Shown: positions 40,611 through 48,641 of the stretch, in pieces
Layout: each line of letters starts with the position of its first letter
How positions within the stretch are numbered: position 1 is the stretch's first letter
DNA from: Desulfitobacterium metallireducens DSM 15288
GTDB taxonomy: Bacteria > Bacillota > Desulfitobacteriia > Desulfitobacteriales > Desulfitobacteriaceae
Assembly: GCF_000231405.2 (NCBI RefSeq)
Contig: NZ_CP007032.1
Span: 2,232,001-2,296,000 of the forward strand
Reading direction: 5' to 3'
Length of the DNA: 64,000 nucleotides
Notes under the pieces: generated by a model
The model's input: only the letters and a program-made list of their open reading frames with translations
Databases searched by the model: none
Told to the model about the DNA's origin: nothing
Translations under genes and position numbers: made by a program

Positions 40611-42536
40611 CTAGGACTTGTCAGATATCATAACCCACTTGTCATATAATAAATTAAGCTGGCCTTCAATTGTCTCCCGTTCATGCTGAAGCGAAGCAAG
40701 TCTTGATGAGTCGCAAGAAATTGCAGGGTCAGACATTTGAGCCTCAATATCAAGAATATGTTGTTCCAGTGCGGCTATTTCCTTTTCTAGTTGAGTAGCT
40801 GATTTACACGGGTCAGTCATCTTTGCAACAGACGCTTTAACTTGCTGACCCCGTTTATTAGTAAGGCTTGCCGGGCTGTCTGTTTTACTTACGATCTTAA
40901 TAATTTGTTTGTTCTTTCTTTCCAGATAGTCATTATAATTACCCAAGTACGCAGTAACCTCGCCTTGGTCAAGGACCCAAACCCTGTGAGCCAAACGATT
41001 GATAAAATACCGGTCGTGAGAGATTGCCAATAGCGTGCCGGGGAATTCCTCCAATGCTTCTTCCAGAGCTTCACGCGAATCAATATCTAGGTGATTCGTA
41101 GGTTCATCGAGCAATAAGAGATTTGGCTTTTGATACATGAGTAATGCGAGTTGCAATCGGCTCCATTCTCCGCCGGACAAACTGCTAATCTTCTGGAAAA
41201 CGTCGGAACCGTAGAAGAGAAATTTTGCCAACTGTTTTCTGGCTTCACCTTCTTCCATATCCAGTTCTGCACGGAAATATTGAAGGACGGTTTGGTCGGA
41301 CTTGAGCGGTGCACTGTCTTGGGAGAGATATCCGATGTCAACTCGTGAGCCAAGGCGAATTTCACCGTGATCTGGGTTTTCCTGATCTAAGATTAATTTT
41401 AGAAGAGTACTTTTACCGCAGCCATTTTTCCCGATGAGGACGATTCGTTCGCCGTAAAATAGCTGGGCGCTGACTTGACTGAAAAGCGAGCGGTTAGCAT
41501 AGGATTTGCTGATTCCCTCCAGCAAAATCACTTGCTTTCCGGAACGGTCACTTTGTTCGAGCTGAAGGTCAATTTTTTTGCGTTCTAAGATCGGTCGCTT
41601 TAATTTAATCATTCGATCTAAGGCTTTTTGCATAGATGCAGCACGGCGATGAAAACCGGGATTCGGTGGATTGGAGCGGTTGCCCCAGTCCATTAATTGT
41701 TTAATGGATTCCTGCATCTTTTTAATCTTTTTTTGTTGTTCTTGATAATTTGTAAACTCTGAGAGCAGGCGGCTCTCTTTTTCTTTCTGATAGTCGGTAT
41801 AGTTCGTTTGGTAAGTTACAGCTTCTCCGTCTTCCAGTTCAATGATTTTAGTGATCGCTCTATCTAAAAAGTAACGGTCATGAGAAACAACGATGACAGT
41901 GCCCCTATAGTCATTCAAAAAAGTCTCAAGCCATTCAATAGAGGACATATCCAGGTGATTGGTTGGTTCGTCCAGCAATAAAACATCAGGCTGCGTCAAG
42001 AGTAAGGCTGCTAAACCCACCTTCGTTTTTTCTCCGCCGGATAAAGAGGAAAATGGCCGTGAATAGTAATCTGCTGTTACACCGAGTCCGTTGGCAATCC
42101 CGTCGATGCGGGAAGAAATTTGGTATCCACCAGCCTCTTCGAACTTCTCCTGAAGTTTGCCATATTCCAGCATAAGCTGACTCAGTTTATTATTCTCTGC
42201 GTTCATGGAGTCAGACATTTTTTGCTCTAATCGTTTTATTTGCTGCTGCCACTTCTTTACTTCTTGAAAGCACTGTTCCAATACTTCATAGACGCTCATT
42301 TTGGCGTCATATTCAGGGGCCTGAGCTAAGAACCCAATCCTGCTGTTTTTGCGTATTGCGATTTGTCCTTGTTCAGGTTGAAGGGATCCTATGATTAACT
42401 TTAAAATTGTGGACTTTCCTGTTCCGTTACGACCTATTAGACCTACTCGTTCTCCTTGCTGAATTTCAAAGGAGATGTCGGCAAGCACTTCATTGGCGCC
42501 AAAAGATAGTTTGATGTGTTGAAAATCAATAATCAT
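40611..42536 (-). CDS. ABC-F ATPase, probable ribosome-protection (antibiotic-resistance) type
   Basis: 641 residues, two ABC domains without membrane segments. Domain 1: GRNGTGKSTILKLI, LSGGEKTKVGLAALL, LLLDEPTNHLD. The linker of about 80 charged residues (FTNYQEQQKKIKKMQESIKQ) would reach the ribosome. Domain 2: GKNGCGKSTLLKLI, LSGGEWSRLQLALL, LLLDEPTNHLD, then a coiled C-terminal tail. I start at 42536, seven bases after GGAGGAG. The attenuator-like leader (42582-42788) argues for drug-induced expression, as for Vga/Lsa/Vml-type proteins; a housekeeping ABC-F would rarely have one. Exact resistance class not inferable. Confidence 0.88.
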   Translation of the reverse strand: MIIDFQHIKLSFGANEVLADISFEIQQGERVGLIGRNGTGKSTILKLIIGSLQPEQGQIAIRKNSRIGFLAQAPEYDAKMSVYEVLEQCFQEVKKWQQQIKRLEQKMSDSMNAENNKLSQLMLEYGKLQEKFEEAGGYQISSRIDGIANGLGVTADYYSRPFSSLSGGEKTKVGLAALLLTQPDVLLLDEPTNHLDMSSIEWLETFLNDYRGTVIVVSHDRYFLDRAITKIIELEDGEAVTYQTNYTDYQKEKESRLLSEFTNYQEQQKKIKKMQESIKQLMDWGNRSNPPNPGFHRRAASMQKALDRMIKLKRPILERKKIDLQLEQSDRSGKQVILLEGISKSYANRSLFSQVSAQLFYGERIVLIGKNGCGKSTLLKLILDQENPDHGEIRLGSRVDIGYLSQDSAPLKSDQTVLQYFRAELDMEEGEARKQLAKFLFYGSDVFQKISSLSGGEWSRLQLALLMYQKPNLLLLDEPTNHLDIDSREALEEALEEFPGTLLAISHDRYFINRLAHRVWVLDQGEVTAYLGNYNDYLERKNKQIIKIVSKTDSPASLTNKRGQQVKASVAKMTDPCKSATQLEKEIAALEQHILDIEAQMSDPAISCDSSRLASLQHERETIEGQLNLLYDKWVMISDKS

Positions 42537-42553
42537 GTTCATTCTCCTCCGGG

Positions 42554-42656
42554 GAAATGACACTTTTACGGATTTAAGCATAAAAAAACCGCAAGGAAAT
42601 GTCCCTACGGTCGCAGCTTCAATTTTTCGTTGCGGTTATGGTAGGTGTGTCATTTC
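42554..42656 (-). promoter_or_regulatory. Leader long-range stem enclosing the terminator of the ABC-F gene
   Basis: GTGTCATTTC (42647-42656, inside the last codons of the leader ORF) is perfectly complementary to GAAATGACAC (42554-42563, just upstream of the ABC-F ribosome binding site). Ten base pairs that enclose the terminator would bring the leader stop and the ABC-F start region together, so ribosome position on the leader can change folding of both terminator and translation start. Confidence 0.6.
42582..42637 (-). terminator. Intrinsic terminator in the ABC-F leader (attenuator)
   Basis: On the minus strand AACCGCAA (42637-42630) pairs with TTGCGGTT (42594-42587), followed at once by a run of T (42588-42582). 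It stands between the leader ORF, whose stop codon is within the first arm, and the ABC-F start, so default transcription should end here. Confidence 0.8.
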
Positions 42657-42788
42657 GCAATTTTGTTGATCCGTACTCAGTTGTTTAAAAACGGGCATAG
42701 CTATCCCGTTAAATGAAACTGCATACATAATTCCAAAGATTGCTATTGGCAACTGTTCAAGACGAAGCATTGCAAAATCGCGATTCAT
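42636..42788 (-). CDS. 50-codon leader peptide (uORF) upstream of the ABC-F gene
   Basis: Starts MNRDFAMLRLEQ, has a hydrophobic centre (PIAIFGIMYAVSFNGIAM) and ends CEMTHLP with TAA at 42636. A very strong GGAGGTG site lies seven bases before the ATG. The stop falls inside the terminator stem and the last codons form one arm of a 10-bp long-range pairing, so ribosome position can decide read-through. Too short for ordinary ORF lists. A separate small membrane protein remains possible, but the position makes a regulatory role more likely. A smaller hairpin (AACGGG/CCCGTT, 42690-42710) lies within it. Confidence 0.72.
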   Translation of the reverse strand: MNRDFAMLRLEQLPIAIFGIMYAVSFNGIAMPVFKQLSTDQQNCEMTHLP

Positions 42789-42970
42789 CCTACCACACCT
42801 CCTTCACTGAATTAGTATGAATATAGTAACATAATCCAAGTGGAATAATCAACCAAATTCTCAGTCTATATTAAAAGCTACGGGCAGTATCTTTTTTGCC
42901 TGCCTTTCTTAAGTTATCCTTAAGTCCCAACAGTCACATTACAACAACACATTTTTCCTTTTCACGCCTA

Positions 42971-44101
42971 TTAGGTATGCTTTTTCAATTCTTTTAAAGA
43001 ATAAAAAGTCCCCCGCCATTCGAGACCGCCCCGACTTAAAATCCTAACCATCGAGTTTAATATTGCATAAAGGTGGAGAGAAACGGATATTGGGTGAACA
43101 AGAGCATGTTTAAGGGATATGCCCCCAAATCTTTTAGCCACATTATAACAAGTAAATATGATGATAATAGAGAGTCCACATAGTATTCTTGACAAAGTTG
43201 AACCTATGAATATTCCCAGGAAAGGATATATTTGTATAAATCCATTAAACAAACCTGCCGCAAGTGTTGCTGCAACATCATAGTTCATACCAGGAAATTG
43301 ATTTTTCTCGATGCCTTTTAGCATCGTAAAAATACTGTCATATAATTTAACAGATATTAACCCGTTACTGATTCCATATTCTTGTTTATACCCTTTCTTT
43401 ACCACCAGTTTACCTAGAGACCAGTCATCAACTGGTTCTAACGCAAGAGCTTTATAACTGCCGATTTCTTCGTAGGTTGATTTTCTTATTAAGTTAAAAG
43501 CGCCTACCCCTGCCGCTTTGCTCGACATAAAAATAAAAGTAATTGAAAATTGAAACCAAGACATTAAACTGCTAAAGAAAAAGCCTTTTGTAGTAACATT
43601 CGGACCTATGGTTAAATGATCAAGATTATTATTAACGGCATAATTAACAGCTTTCTTTAAACTGTTAGGTGAGAACATTACATCGGCATCGGTAAAAAGA
43701 AGCCACTCGCCTTTTGCCTGTTTCGTTCCTTGATAAACGGCATGAGTCTTACCTAACCAATTTGAAGGCAAGTCAGTAATTGTAATTACTTTCAATTGAG
43801 GATATTCGTTTTCAAGTTCCTTTAAAATATCCCCTGTATGGTCAGTCGAACGATCGTTGATAACAATTACTTCAAAATTAGGATAATCCTGTACAAGCAA
43901 TTGATGGATTGCCCGTTTAATGGATTCTTCTTCATTGCAAGCTGCAACGACAATAGATAATGATGGATAAGTCATGTTTTTATCAGAACAATCCCCATTG
44001 TAAAAAATCGGTCTTTTTCTCATATAACTAATTAACATTGATCCAAGACCCAACCATAGCACAACATTTGCGATAGCCAAGATTAAAAAAGGGTTATTCA
44101 T
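42971..44101 (-). CDS. Membrane-associated family 2 glycosyltransferase
   Basis: About 376 residues. N-terminal helix (5-28), GT-A fold with LSIVVAACNEEESIKRAI, VINDRSTDHTGDIL (metal/nucleotide DxD-like), FTDADVMFSPN as DxD, and C-terminal helices at about 290-350. Resembles HpnI- and CrtQ-type transferases that glycosylate lipids or carotenoids; acceptor unknown. Start chosen at 44101, six bases after GGGAGGAGG; ATG 44107 is too close to it. Divergent from the molybdenum hydroxylase operon. Confidence 0.87.
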   Translation of the reverse strand: MNNPFLILAIANVVLWLGLGSMLISYMRKRPIFYNGDCSDKNMTYPSLSIVVAACNEEESIKRAIHQLLVQDYPNFEVIVINDRSTDHTGDILKELENEYPQLKVITITDLPSNWLGKTHAVYQGTKQAKGEWLLFTDADVMFSPNSLKKAVNYAVNNNLDHLTIGPNVTTKGFFFSSLMSWFQFSITFIFMSSKAAGVGAFNLIRKSTYEEIGSYKALALEPVDDWSLGKLVVKKGYKQEYGISNGLISVKLYDSIFTMLKGIEKNQFPGMNYDVAATLAAGLFNGFIQIYPFLGIFIGSTLSRILCGLSIIIIFTCYNVAKRFGGISLKHALVHPISVSLHLYAILNSMVRILSRGGLEWRGTFYSLKELKKHT

Positions 44102-44324
44102 TCTCATCCTCCTCCCAACCCAATCTATCCTATATGTAAATATTCGGGATTAGAAGGGATTAGACAGCATTAACTAATTTTCAGCATTATTTTAGCCCAC
44201 TGTCAAACGAAATTTCCCAAGTATCTTACCTTGGCGGATTATGCTTAAATTTTAAAGTAATAGGACAAAAGTACGTTCCAATATAAATGTTATAGCGACG
44301 TCCAAAATTAAGGAGCAGTATAAC

Positions 44325-46616: not shown

Positions 46617-47446
46617 TACCATTTGACTTTGAATATTATAAACCCTCTTCAATGATGGAAGCAGTAGATACATTTAGATTATTGAATACCCAGGGAAAAG
46701 AGCCTTTATATTATGGCGGCGGAACAGAAATTATCACCATGGCAAGAAGATCCCATATATTCACCGAAGCTGTCATTGATATAAAAGGAATACCTGAATG
46801 TAATACCTTTAATGTGCAAAATGGAAAACTTGTCATAGGCGCCTCAATAACGCTTACACAGCTTCAAGAATCCAAAATTTTTCCCCTTCTAGGAAGAGCA
46901 GCCAGAAAGGTTGCAGATCATACGGTCCGCAATAAATTAACTGTAGGCGGCAATATTTGCGGTAAAATAACGTTTAGAGAAGCTGTTCTGCCCTTTTTGC
47001 TTTCAGACAGCACGGTGGTTTTAGCGGGACAAAAAGGAATAAGAAATGTCCCTATTAGTCAAGTGTTTAATAAAACATTAAATCTGGAAAAAGGAGAGTT
47101 TTTAGTCCAGCTTGTAACAGATATAGGCTACAGTCAATTTCCTTTTATGAGTATAAAAAAGACGAAGCAGGAAAAATCTGCTTATCCGCTTATTTCTATC
47201 GATTCATTAAAAAAGGACGGACAAACCCGGTTTGCTTTTAGCGGTGTCTGTCCTTTTCCCTTTAGATCATCCACTATAGAGCAAGTTTTAAACGATAAGA
47301 ATATTCCTTTGGAACTCAGAATAAATAAGGCACTATCCATGCTTCCGGCTCCTATCAATAACAATATTGAAGCATCCGCTGAATATAGAGAATTCGTCCT
47401 TAAAAATACATTATCAGATACTATTAAGGTGCTTGAAAGGAGTTAA
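46613..47446 (+). CDS. Molybdenum hydroxylase FAD-binding subunit
   Basis: Medium subunit, 277 residues, passing electrons from the [2Fe-2S] subunit to NAD or another acceptor. N-terminal FAD-binding motif YYGGGTEIITMARR, followed by KLVIGASITLTQL and TVRNKLTVGGNICGKITFREA (PCMH-type FAD fold), then the CO dehydrogenase flavoprotein C-terminal domain. GTG start with AGGGGGG seven bases upstream; it overlaps the large-subunit stop by four bases. Shorter than XdhB of E. coli but in the normal range. Confidence 0.9.
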   Translation: MIPFDFEYYKPSSMMEAVDTFRLLNTQGKEPLYYGGGTEIITMARRSHIFTEAVIDIKGIPECNTFNVQNGKLVIGASITLTQLQESKIFPLLGRAARKVADHTVRNKLTVGGNICGKITFREAVLPFLLSDSTVVLAGQKGIRNVPISQVFNKTLNLEKGEFLVQLVTDIGYSQFPFMSIKKTKQEKSAYPLISIDSLKKDGQTRFAFSGVCPFPFRSSTIEQVLNDKNIPLELRINKALSMLPAPINNNIEASAEYREFVLKNTLSDTIKVLERS

Positions 47447-47447
47447 T

Positions 47448-48641
47448 ATGCTGGTATCCCACAACGAAAATAAATTCCCTCTGGAAATTGACGTTAATGG
47501 TGAAATAAAAAACATTGTGGCAAGACCTGCAGATACTCTGCTTTACGTACTGCGTGATTCGCTTGGTCTTACAGGTGCCAAACCCGGTTGTGAAAATGGA
47601 GATTGTGGAGCCTGTACAGTTCTTGTAGACGGATGGCCTGTTAAATCATGTCTAATGCTCGCCGTTGAAGCAATAGGGCACAAGATAACGACAATAGAAG
47701 GGCTTAAAGATACTCCTATTCAAAAGTCTTTTATAGAAAATTGGGCTTTTCAATGCGGCTATTGTACATCTGGATTTATCATGAATTGTTATGCATTATC
47801 GAAAATCCACCCGGATGCAAATGACGAAGTCATTCAAGAGTGGTTACAATCTAATCTTTGTAGATGTACCAGCTACGAAGAGATAAAAAAAGCTGTAAAA
47901 TCGGTGTTAAAATCCAATCATCATCATTCTTCTCTTGGAATAAATATTAAAGAGAATTGGAGGGATATGAAAATGAATTACACCATCCAACCCGGTGATT
48001 CGTTCTATATAATTGCGCAAAAATATAATATACCGCTAAATGAACTGATAAGAGCCAATCCTCAGATTGATGACCCCGAGCACATTTTTCCCGGGCAAAT
48101 AATTAACATACCCCTAAGCAGTTGTTCGCAATTACCTAATCCATATCGTCTGCCGGATCCTTACCCTGAAAGACGTGTTGCCGTTAAAAATCCCTACTAT
48201 GCTCAACTCATATTAGACGATTATGCCGGAAAAGTGAGCGAGACAACAGCCATCATGCAGTATATTCATCACCATATGGAGATGGAATCAATCCCTTCCT
48301 GGCAGGAAGTATCCGACCTTGAAGAAGGGATTAGCATTGTTGAGATGCTTCATCTGGAAATGTTGGGGGAAATAATTATCCACTTAGGCGCATCACCCTG
48401 CTATTACGACAGCAGACAACAGCCCTGGACCCCTCAATATATCGCCTATCACAACTTCGACCCATGTGCACAACTACGTGCGGATATCCAATCCGAACAC
48501 GATGCCATCCACCAGTATCAGGCCCATATTCAAGTGATTCAGGATCCCTTTATTCAGGCCCTTCTAGCCCGGATTATTAAGGATGAGGAGTTTCATATCA
48601 AGCTCTTTTCCGAAAAACTGGCGAAATTCTGCGGATCATAG
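47448..48641 (+). CDS. Fusion: molybdenum hydroxylase [2Fe-2S] subunit + LysM + di-iron ferritin-like domain
   Basis: 397 residues in one open frame. Residues 1-160 are a complete small subunit: GCENGDCGACTVLVDG for the plant-type cluster, QCGYCTSGF and LCRCTSYEEI for the second. Residues ~176-220 are a LysM repeat (YTIQPGDSFYIIAQKYNIP ... IINIPL). Residues ~245-397 form a ferritin-like bundle with full di-iron ligands: Glu in SETTAIMQY, ExxH in VEMLHLEM, Glu in SEHDAIHQY, ExxH in DEEFHIK. An internal ATG (47967 or 47973) follows GGAGGG, so the LysM-ferritin part may also be made separately. The frame is open over the junction, suggesting loss of a stop codon. Start 47448 is five bases after GGAG. 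Confidence 0.88.
   Translation: MLVSHNENKFPLEIDVNGEIKNIVARPADTLLYVLRDSLGLTGAKPGCENGDCGACTVLVDGWPVKSCLMLAVEAIGHKITTIEGLKDTPIQKSFIENWAFQCGYCTSGFIMNCYALSKIHPDANDEVIQEWLQSNLCRCTSYEEIKKAVKSVLKSNHHHSSLGINIKENWRDMKMNYTIQPGDSFYIIAQKYNIPLNELIRANPQIDDPEHIFPGQIINIPLSSCSQLPNPYRLPDPYPERRVAVKNPYYAQLILDDYAGKVSETTAIMQYIHHHMEMESIPSWQEVSDLEEGISIVEMLHLEMLGEIIIHLGASPCYYDSRQQPWTPQYIAYHNFDPCAQLRADIQSEHDAIHQYQAHIQVIQDPFIQALLARIIKDEEFHIKLFSEKLAKFCGS

Follow-up and report, generated by a model that had tools for sequence, protein, structure and literature searches.

The region preceding an ABC-F gene of Desulfitobacterium metallireducens DSM 15288 is likely to be a ribosome-sensing attenuator of that gene, a class assignment that is well supported, and the RAxF-45 "small protein family", to which its 50-codon leader belongs, seems to consist of ribosome-sensing RNA switches present across many Gram-positive bacteria. 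Sequence comparison within this family reveals a common leader–terminator–ABC-F layout, a stem between the leader start (segment A) and the leader end (segment B), a core conserved at the nucleotide level, and complementarity of B to a segment beyond the terminator (segment C), with a weaker one to the terminator. On this basis we infer polymerase pausing, ribosome stalling and antitermination. This reading provides a testable function for small proteins of unknown role that are curated as one family.

Organization of the locus

All the leader elements (Table 1) lie on the minus strand of the window, that is, of the whole 64,000-nt stretch of DNA that was analysed; the plus-strand fold is uninformative, and on the minus strand the leader RNA folds better than shuffled sequences (z -2.3, 4/200). 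A previous sequence-only reading had proposed a 50-codon leader behind a strong ribosome binding site, a terminator hairpin followed by seven T, and a 10-bp complement between the last leader codons and the sequence just before the ABC-F ribosome site, and these three elements have been confirmed, the complement being perfect. The same reading had the leader ORF ending within the terminator's 5' arm, which proved incorrect: the stop codon is actually located 23 nt upstream of the hairpin, and would fall in a hairpin only by the alternative pairing AACCGCAA/TTGCGGTT. The candidate promoter shows 83% identity with relatives, versus 41% upstream of it, and is uncertain, its TTGATT/TACTAT boxes scoring under threshold in a promoter scan. 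An Rfam search of the window returned no family at gathering scores.

Table 1. Features of the leader region and the gene it precedes (window positions)
Feature	Position	Strand	Basis
Candidate promoter, TTGATT (42852-42847) and TACTAT (42828-42823), 18-bp spacer	42823..42852	(-)	Picked by eye
Leader Shine-Dalgarno AAGGAGGTG, 7 nt 5' of ATG	42796..42804	(-)	Sequence; kept in relatives
Leader ORF, ATG, 50 codons plus TAA (42638-42636)	42636..42788	(-)	RAxF-45 family NF041642
Segment A (leader ribosome site, start codon, first codons); partner B	42760..42804	(-)	Own versus swapped duplex test
Core AACGGGATAGCTATGCCCGTTTTT, conserved hairpin followed by a T-run; putative pause signal for RNA polymerase	42687..42710	(-)	Nucleotide-level conservation across the family
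Segment B, leader ORF end; complements A, C and, more weakly, the terminator 5' arm	42636..42670	(-)	Duplex tests
Intrinsic terminator, hairpin 42612-42587, T7 42588-42582	42582..42612	(-)	Fold; 96% identity to relatives
Segment C GTGTCATTTC, complementary without mismatch to GAAATGACAC (42656-42647, within B)	42554..42563	(-)	Sequence
Predicted hairpin, partly over the ABC-F ribosome site and start, overlapping C	42535..42563	(-)	Minimum-energy fold
ABC-F gene, 641 aa; start codon 42536, GGAGGAG 42550-42544	40611..42536	(-)	NF000355

The ABC-F protein scores 491.8 bits against NF000355 (ribosomal protection-like; general cut-off 380) and falls below the cut-offs of the named resistance subfamilies Vga, Msr, Lsa, Sal, OptrA and CplR. 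Its nearest solved chains are EttA (the nearest), Uup, the ExpZ-named 8buu and PoxtA. Directly upstream of the ABC-F leader lies a gene for a GT2 glycosyltransferase, 42971-44107 (-), that resembles HpnB/CruG under their cut-offs. Elsewhere in the window, a 424-aa ORF at 47367-48641 (+) joins a xanthine-dehydrogenase-type [2Fe-2S] subunit (Fer2, Fer2_2) to LysM and to a ferritin/Mn-catalase-like domain, either as a true fusion or because two genes have been read together.

Conservation and distribution of RAxF-45 leaders

The leader peptide matches the NCBIfam family NF041642, "RAxF-45 family protein", with 34.4 bits in a profile search (curated cut-off 27), and is the single copy in the D. 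metallireducens genome. In Desulfosporosinus, which belongs to the same family as D. metallireducens, leader, terminator and ABC-F gene remain together and the leader peptides are 86-98% identical. At the DNA level, relatives share 95% identity with the window in the leader and 96% in the terminator, versus 41% in the intergenic DNA upstream. The attenuator idea had been staked beforehand, in part, on the conservation of leader ORF and terminator in relatives; both are kept, as is the 10-bp complement, and the idea has survived this check.

Beyond these relatives, NF041642 matches have been found in 110 of 399 Bacilli genomes, from 41 of 145 genera, in 45 of the 150 genomes of one family, and in only 8 of 398 genomes sampled across the phylum. 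An ABC-F gene follows on the same strand in all 72 RAxF-45 leaders extracted, which come from many Bacillota families, and an intrinsic terminator is present in each of the 68 that could be scored. This invariable order, together with the conservation of the RNA pairings described below, supports the ribosome-mediated attenuator first proposed from the sequence alone. The leader ribosome site is also kept, and the start-to-core distance is fixed at 75-87 nt across leaders. A weak extra RAxF-45 match (L027) falls within the leader of an MFS gene, and plasmid searches, whether with a RAxF-45 peptide or with the leader DNA of the window, gave no match. At one locus (L021:1-300), the leader promoter region is immediately preceded by direct repeats in tandem, each of about 50 bp (GCGGAAAAACTGTCCGTCATCG...).

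The conserved core

The core has the consensus AACGGGAnnnGUnUGYCC followed by a T-run. In 37 non-redundant leaders that carry it in frame, the core glycines are all encoded by GGG (37/37; background 0.17, p=2.5e-29), and other core codons are similarly constrained (AAC 29/29, AGT 17/17, CTG 20/20, TCC 24/27), with variable first positions in two of these near-fixed codons. In one genus, from the same family as the genus carrying the Listeria-type RNA rliI, TAA replaces AAC and ends the ORF, and the core continues beyond it; in the rliI genus, reading by eye from GTGAA(A/C)TTTGTCG gives a frame that extends as far as RAIFHDV, with its stop immediately 5' of the core. At three loci (L119, L122 and L154), the core lies in another frame of the leader. 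Because synonymous codons are fixed, ORFs are cut short before the core and other frames are used, the core is, by all comparative signs, maintained at the nucleic acid level; the RAxF(H) residues upstream of it may also be conserved for the peptide. The hydrophobic core of the peptide had been suggested as the stalling segment, and this has found no support, since the ORF of one genus stops right before the conserved core, so that the later leader codons are dispensable there.

These observations also make it very improbable that RAxF-45 is a genuine trans-acting small protein lying in an operon with ABC-F by chance. Such a protein would agree with the curation of NF041642 as a protein family and with the maintenance of the RAxF(H) residues in many lineages, but not with core codons that are fixed synonymously, with an ORF truncated before the core in some genera while the RNA core persists, with a core out of frame at three loci, or with a leader start that is itself buried in a conserved stem.

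With respect to its distribution, the pattern GGGANNNGTNTGYCCNTTTTT has 122 matches (a count made from the match listing) in 97 of 399 Bacilli genomes, versus 3 for the reversed pattern. The window core, the only copy in its own genome, has GCT for NGT and lacks a strict TTNTTT. Apart from ABC-F genes, the core also occurs in leaders whose genes resemble RlmA(II), Erm, Cfr, Mph, Mef and Msr, the gene identities being best family matches to six representative partial sequences, and directly beside FMN aptamers (L113 and L116, ribD) and a glycine aptamer (L126, gcvT). Three Cfr-type genes (L111, L132 and L141) have leaders with the core in frame, and GSSLSFF is found in the leader peptides of at least L111 and L141; Cfr-family methylases may be under a long-leader attenuator here. 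The pattern is also found 5' of nitrite/sulfite reductase-like (L101) and RidA-like (L123/L136) genes, where no attenuator is apparent.

Pausing dependent on NusG has been established for the tlrB, ribD and vmlR leaders of B. subtilis, in which the hairpin ends 11-12 nt 5' of the RNA 3' end and TTNTTT occupies positions -11 to -6 (PMC6851288, PMC12288461, PMC9226507). The geometry of the core is that of these B. subtilis sites, and 25 of 68 leaders have a strict TTNTTT after the core (background 2.3%); in the window, the core shows the hairpin and five T, with no strict TTNTTT directly after. The NusG protein of D. metallireducens reads VVRNTPGVTGFVG, thus carrying the pro-pausing N and T at what we take, from an alignment by motif, to be the contact residues. 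The NT residues of NusG have been linked to pausing (PMC12288461). The core therefore looks like a putative NusG-type pause signal, a reading that rests partly on its position next to FMN and glycine riboswitch aptamers. On balance, we lean towards one pause module common to ABC-F, Erm, Cfr, RlmA(II), Mef and Mph leaders and to FMN/glycine riboswitches in Bacilli, with RAxF-45 and rliI forming one class of long-uORF ABC-F attenuators. Being recognisable, this pause sequence is a possible handle for inducible resistance genes in genome data, including those that have passed unrecognised.

RNA pairings and proposed mechanism

Alignment of 40 whole leaders with MAFFT followed by RNAalifold yielded three pairs only. 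Since helices with changing sequence get misaligned, alignment-free tests were adopted, comparing own with swapped duplexes over 25 sequence clusters. In these tests, the A:B duplex reached -32.1 kcal/mol with own segments versus -21.1 with swapped ones (p=3e-8), and the pairing of the leader start region with the post-core segment was present in all 25 clusters. Complementarity was likewise found family-wide between B and C (p=4e-4) and between B and the terminator 5' arm (p=2.5e-3), whereas control segment pairs were not significant. Two inner helices are also supported, with p=7e-4 and 7.5e-6. A candidate covarying pair inside the core hairpin was not retained, being broken in many sequences.

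Three supported helices and a sequence-conserved core might also be expected of a receptor of riboswitch type that binds a small molecule, perhaps the drug, with leader translation being incidental. However, the core also stands beside FMN/glycine aptamers and in short macrolide leaders, and is for this reason more likely a shared part of the expression platform than an aptamer; the retention of the leader ribosome site and of the 75-87 nt start-to-core spacing also argues against a receptor, which we regard as extremely improbable.

The effect of a ribosome held on the early leader was approximated in silico by blocking A. Across the family, B then paired with the terminator 5' arm, as this emerged, at a mean of 0.61, versus 0.24 with A free, and with A blocked B paired better with its own terminator arm than with swapped arms (0.61 vs 0.45; p=1e-3). 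Access to the ABC-F ribosome site increased modestly, from 0.39 to 0.46 (p=0.01), and the leader ribosome site was more open in RNA ending at the core than in the full RNA (0.43 vs 0.23; p=3e-5). In the window copy the response was weak, B:terminator pairing going from 0.22 to 0.29, and access to the ABC-F site moved from 0.45 to 0.32, opposite to the model, so that an antiterminator is only weakly supported in this copy. In equilibrium folds, the finished terminator had a probability of about 0.95 with or without A blocked, which rules out a simple equilibrium antiterminator as sufficient; antitermination would thus have to be kinetic.

The constancy of the terminator in these folds is also what would be expected of control at the level of translation only, in which the terminator works at fixed efficiency and the leader acts solely, by way of B:C, on how accessible the ABC-F ribosome site is. 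The family-wide B:C complementarity agrees with this, as does cplR of C. difficile, kept repressed by translation attenuation alone (PMC10201436). We nevertheless consider it unlikely, because the B:terminator complementarity is specific to own sequences, the window's ABC-F site access shifts in the wrong direction, and, according to a review, Term-seq has identified rliI as a conditional terminator of the ABC protein gene lmo2760 (PMC8079631).

In the attenuator that we favour, transcription would start near 42816 and a ribosome would load onto the leader. Polymerase would probably pause at the core, some 80 nt past the leader start, giving time for the ribosome, and the fixed start-to-core distance would fit a ribosome catching the paused polymerase just before the core. 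During normal translation the ribosome would proceed, and either A would pair with B or the ribosome would cover B, with termination as the result. On the contrary, a drug-held ribosome on the early leader would block A and leave B free to interfere with the terminator 5' arm during its emergence; in readthrough transcripts, B would then pair with C and the ABC-F ribosome site would be opened. By analogy to the leaders of other ABC-F genes, the inducing drug would be of the pleuromutilin, lincosamide or streptogramin A type.

Comparison with known systems

Ribosome-sensing attenuators of ABC-F genes are already known for vmlR, cplR, lsaA and msrD (PMC9226507, PMC10201436, PMC10314930), and a long leader ORF for bmrB (PMC4191407). 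The B. subtilis vmlR leader shares with RAxF-45 leaders the ABC-F gene and, in the same order, a uORF in an anti-antiterminator stem, a pause hairpin, a terminator and a hairpin hiding the ribosome site; it differs in its three-codon uORF (MIN) and in another pause hairpin (GCUAUUU...) (PMC9226507). B. subtilis, among the control genomes, gave no RAxF-45 match. The cplR, lsaA and vmlR2 leaders also carry a uORF and a terminator 5' of ABC-F, cplR being drug-inducible, but their uORFs have 3-4 codons and a long conserved leader peptide has not been described for them (PMC10201436). Another example is the leader of tlrB (RlmA(II)) in B. subtilis, with a NusG-dependent pause, a leader peptide, a terminator and a hidden ribosome site, although its peptide has nine residues with an RYR arrest motif, it responds to tylosin and its gene is an rRNA methylase (PMC6851288). 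RlmA(II)-type leaders of other Bacilli do carry the core (L110, L148 and L151). In the bmrB leader of B. subtilis bmrCD, a 162-bp ORF has to be translated for drug-induced readthrough, but the terminator lies inside the ORF and the downstream gene codes for an ABC exporter (PMC4191407).

The Listeria RNA rliI (RF01487) overlaps RAxF-45 matches in a Listeria-like genus, with an ABC-F gene downstream; it differs by a shorter uORF that ends before the core, and it is known chiefly as a trans-acting sRNA. Leaders from two other families align with RF01487 over its full length at scores under the threshold; the RF01487 covariance model had no match in the D. metallireducens genome at E<=0.01 and only sub-threshold ones in relatives. 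A Listeria sRNA would in this way be tied to the control of an ABC-F gene. A search of the open-licence literature found no paper on "RAxF-45" and none on a pause module in resistance leaders; as far as this literature shows, the interpretation of RAxF-45 as a family of leaders, the connection with rliI and the common core are new. Among the known systems, the best reading of the RAxF-45 attenuator is one of the vmlR/tlrB kind.
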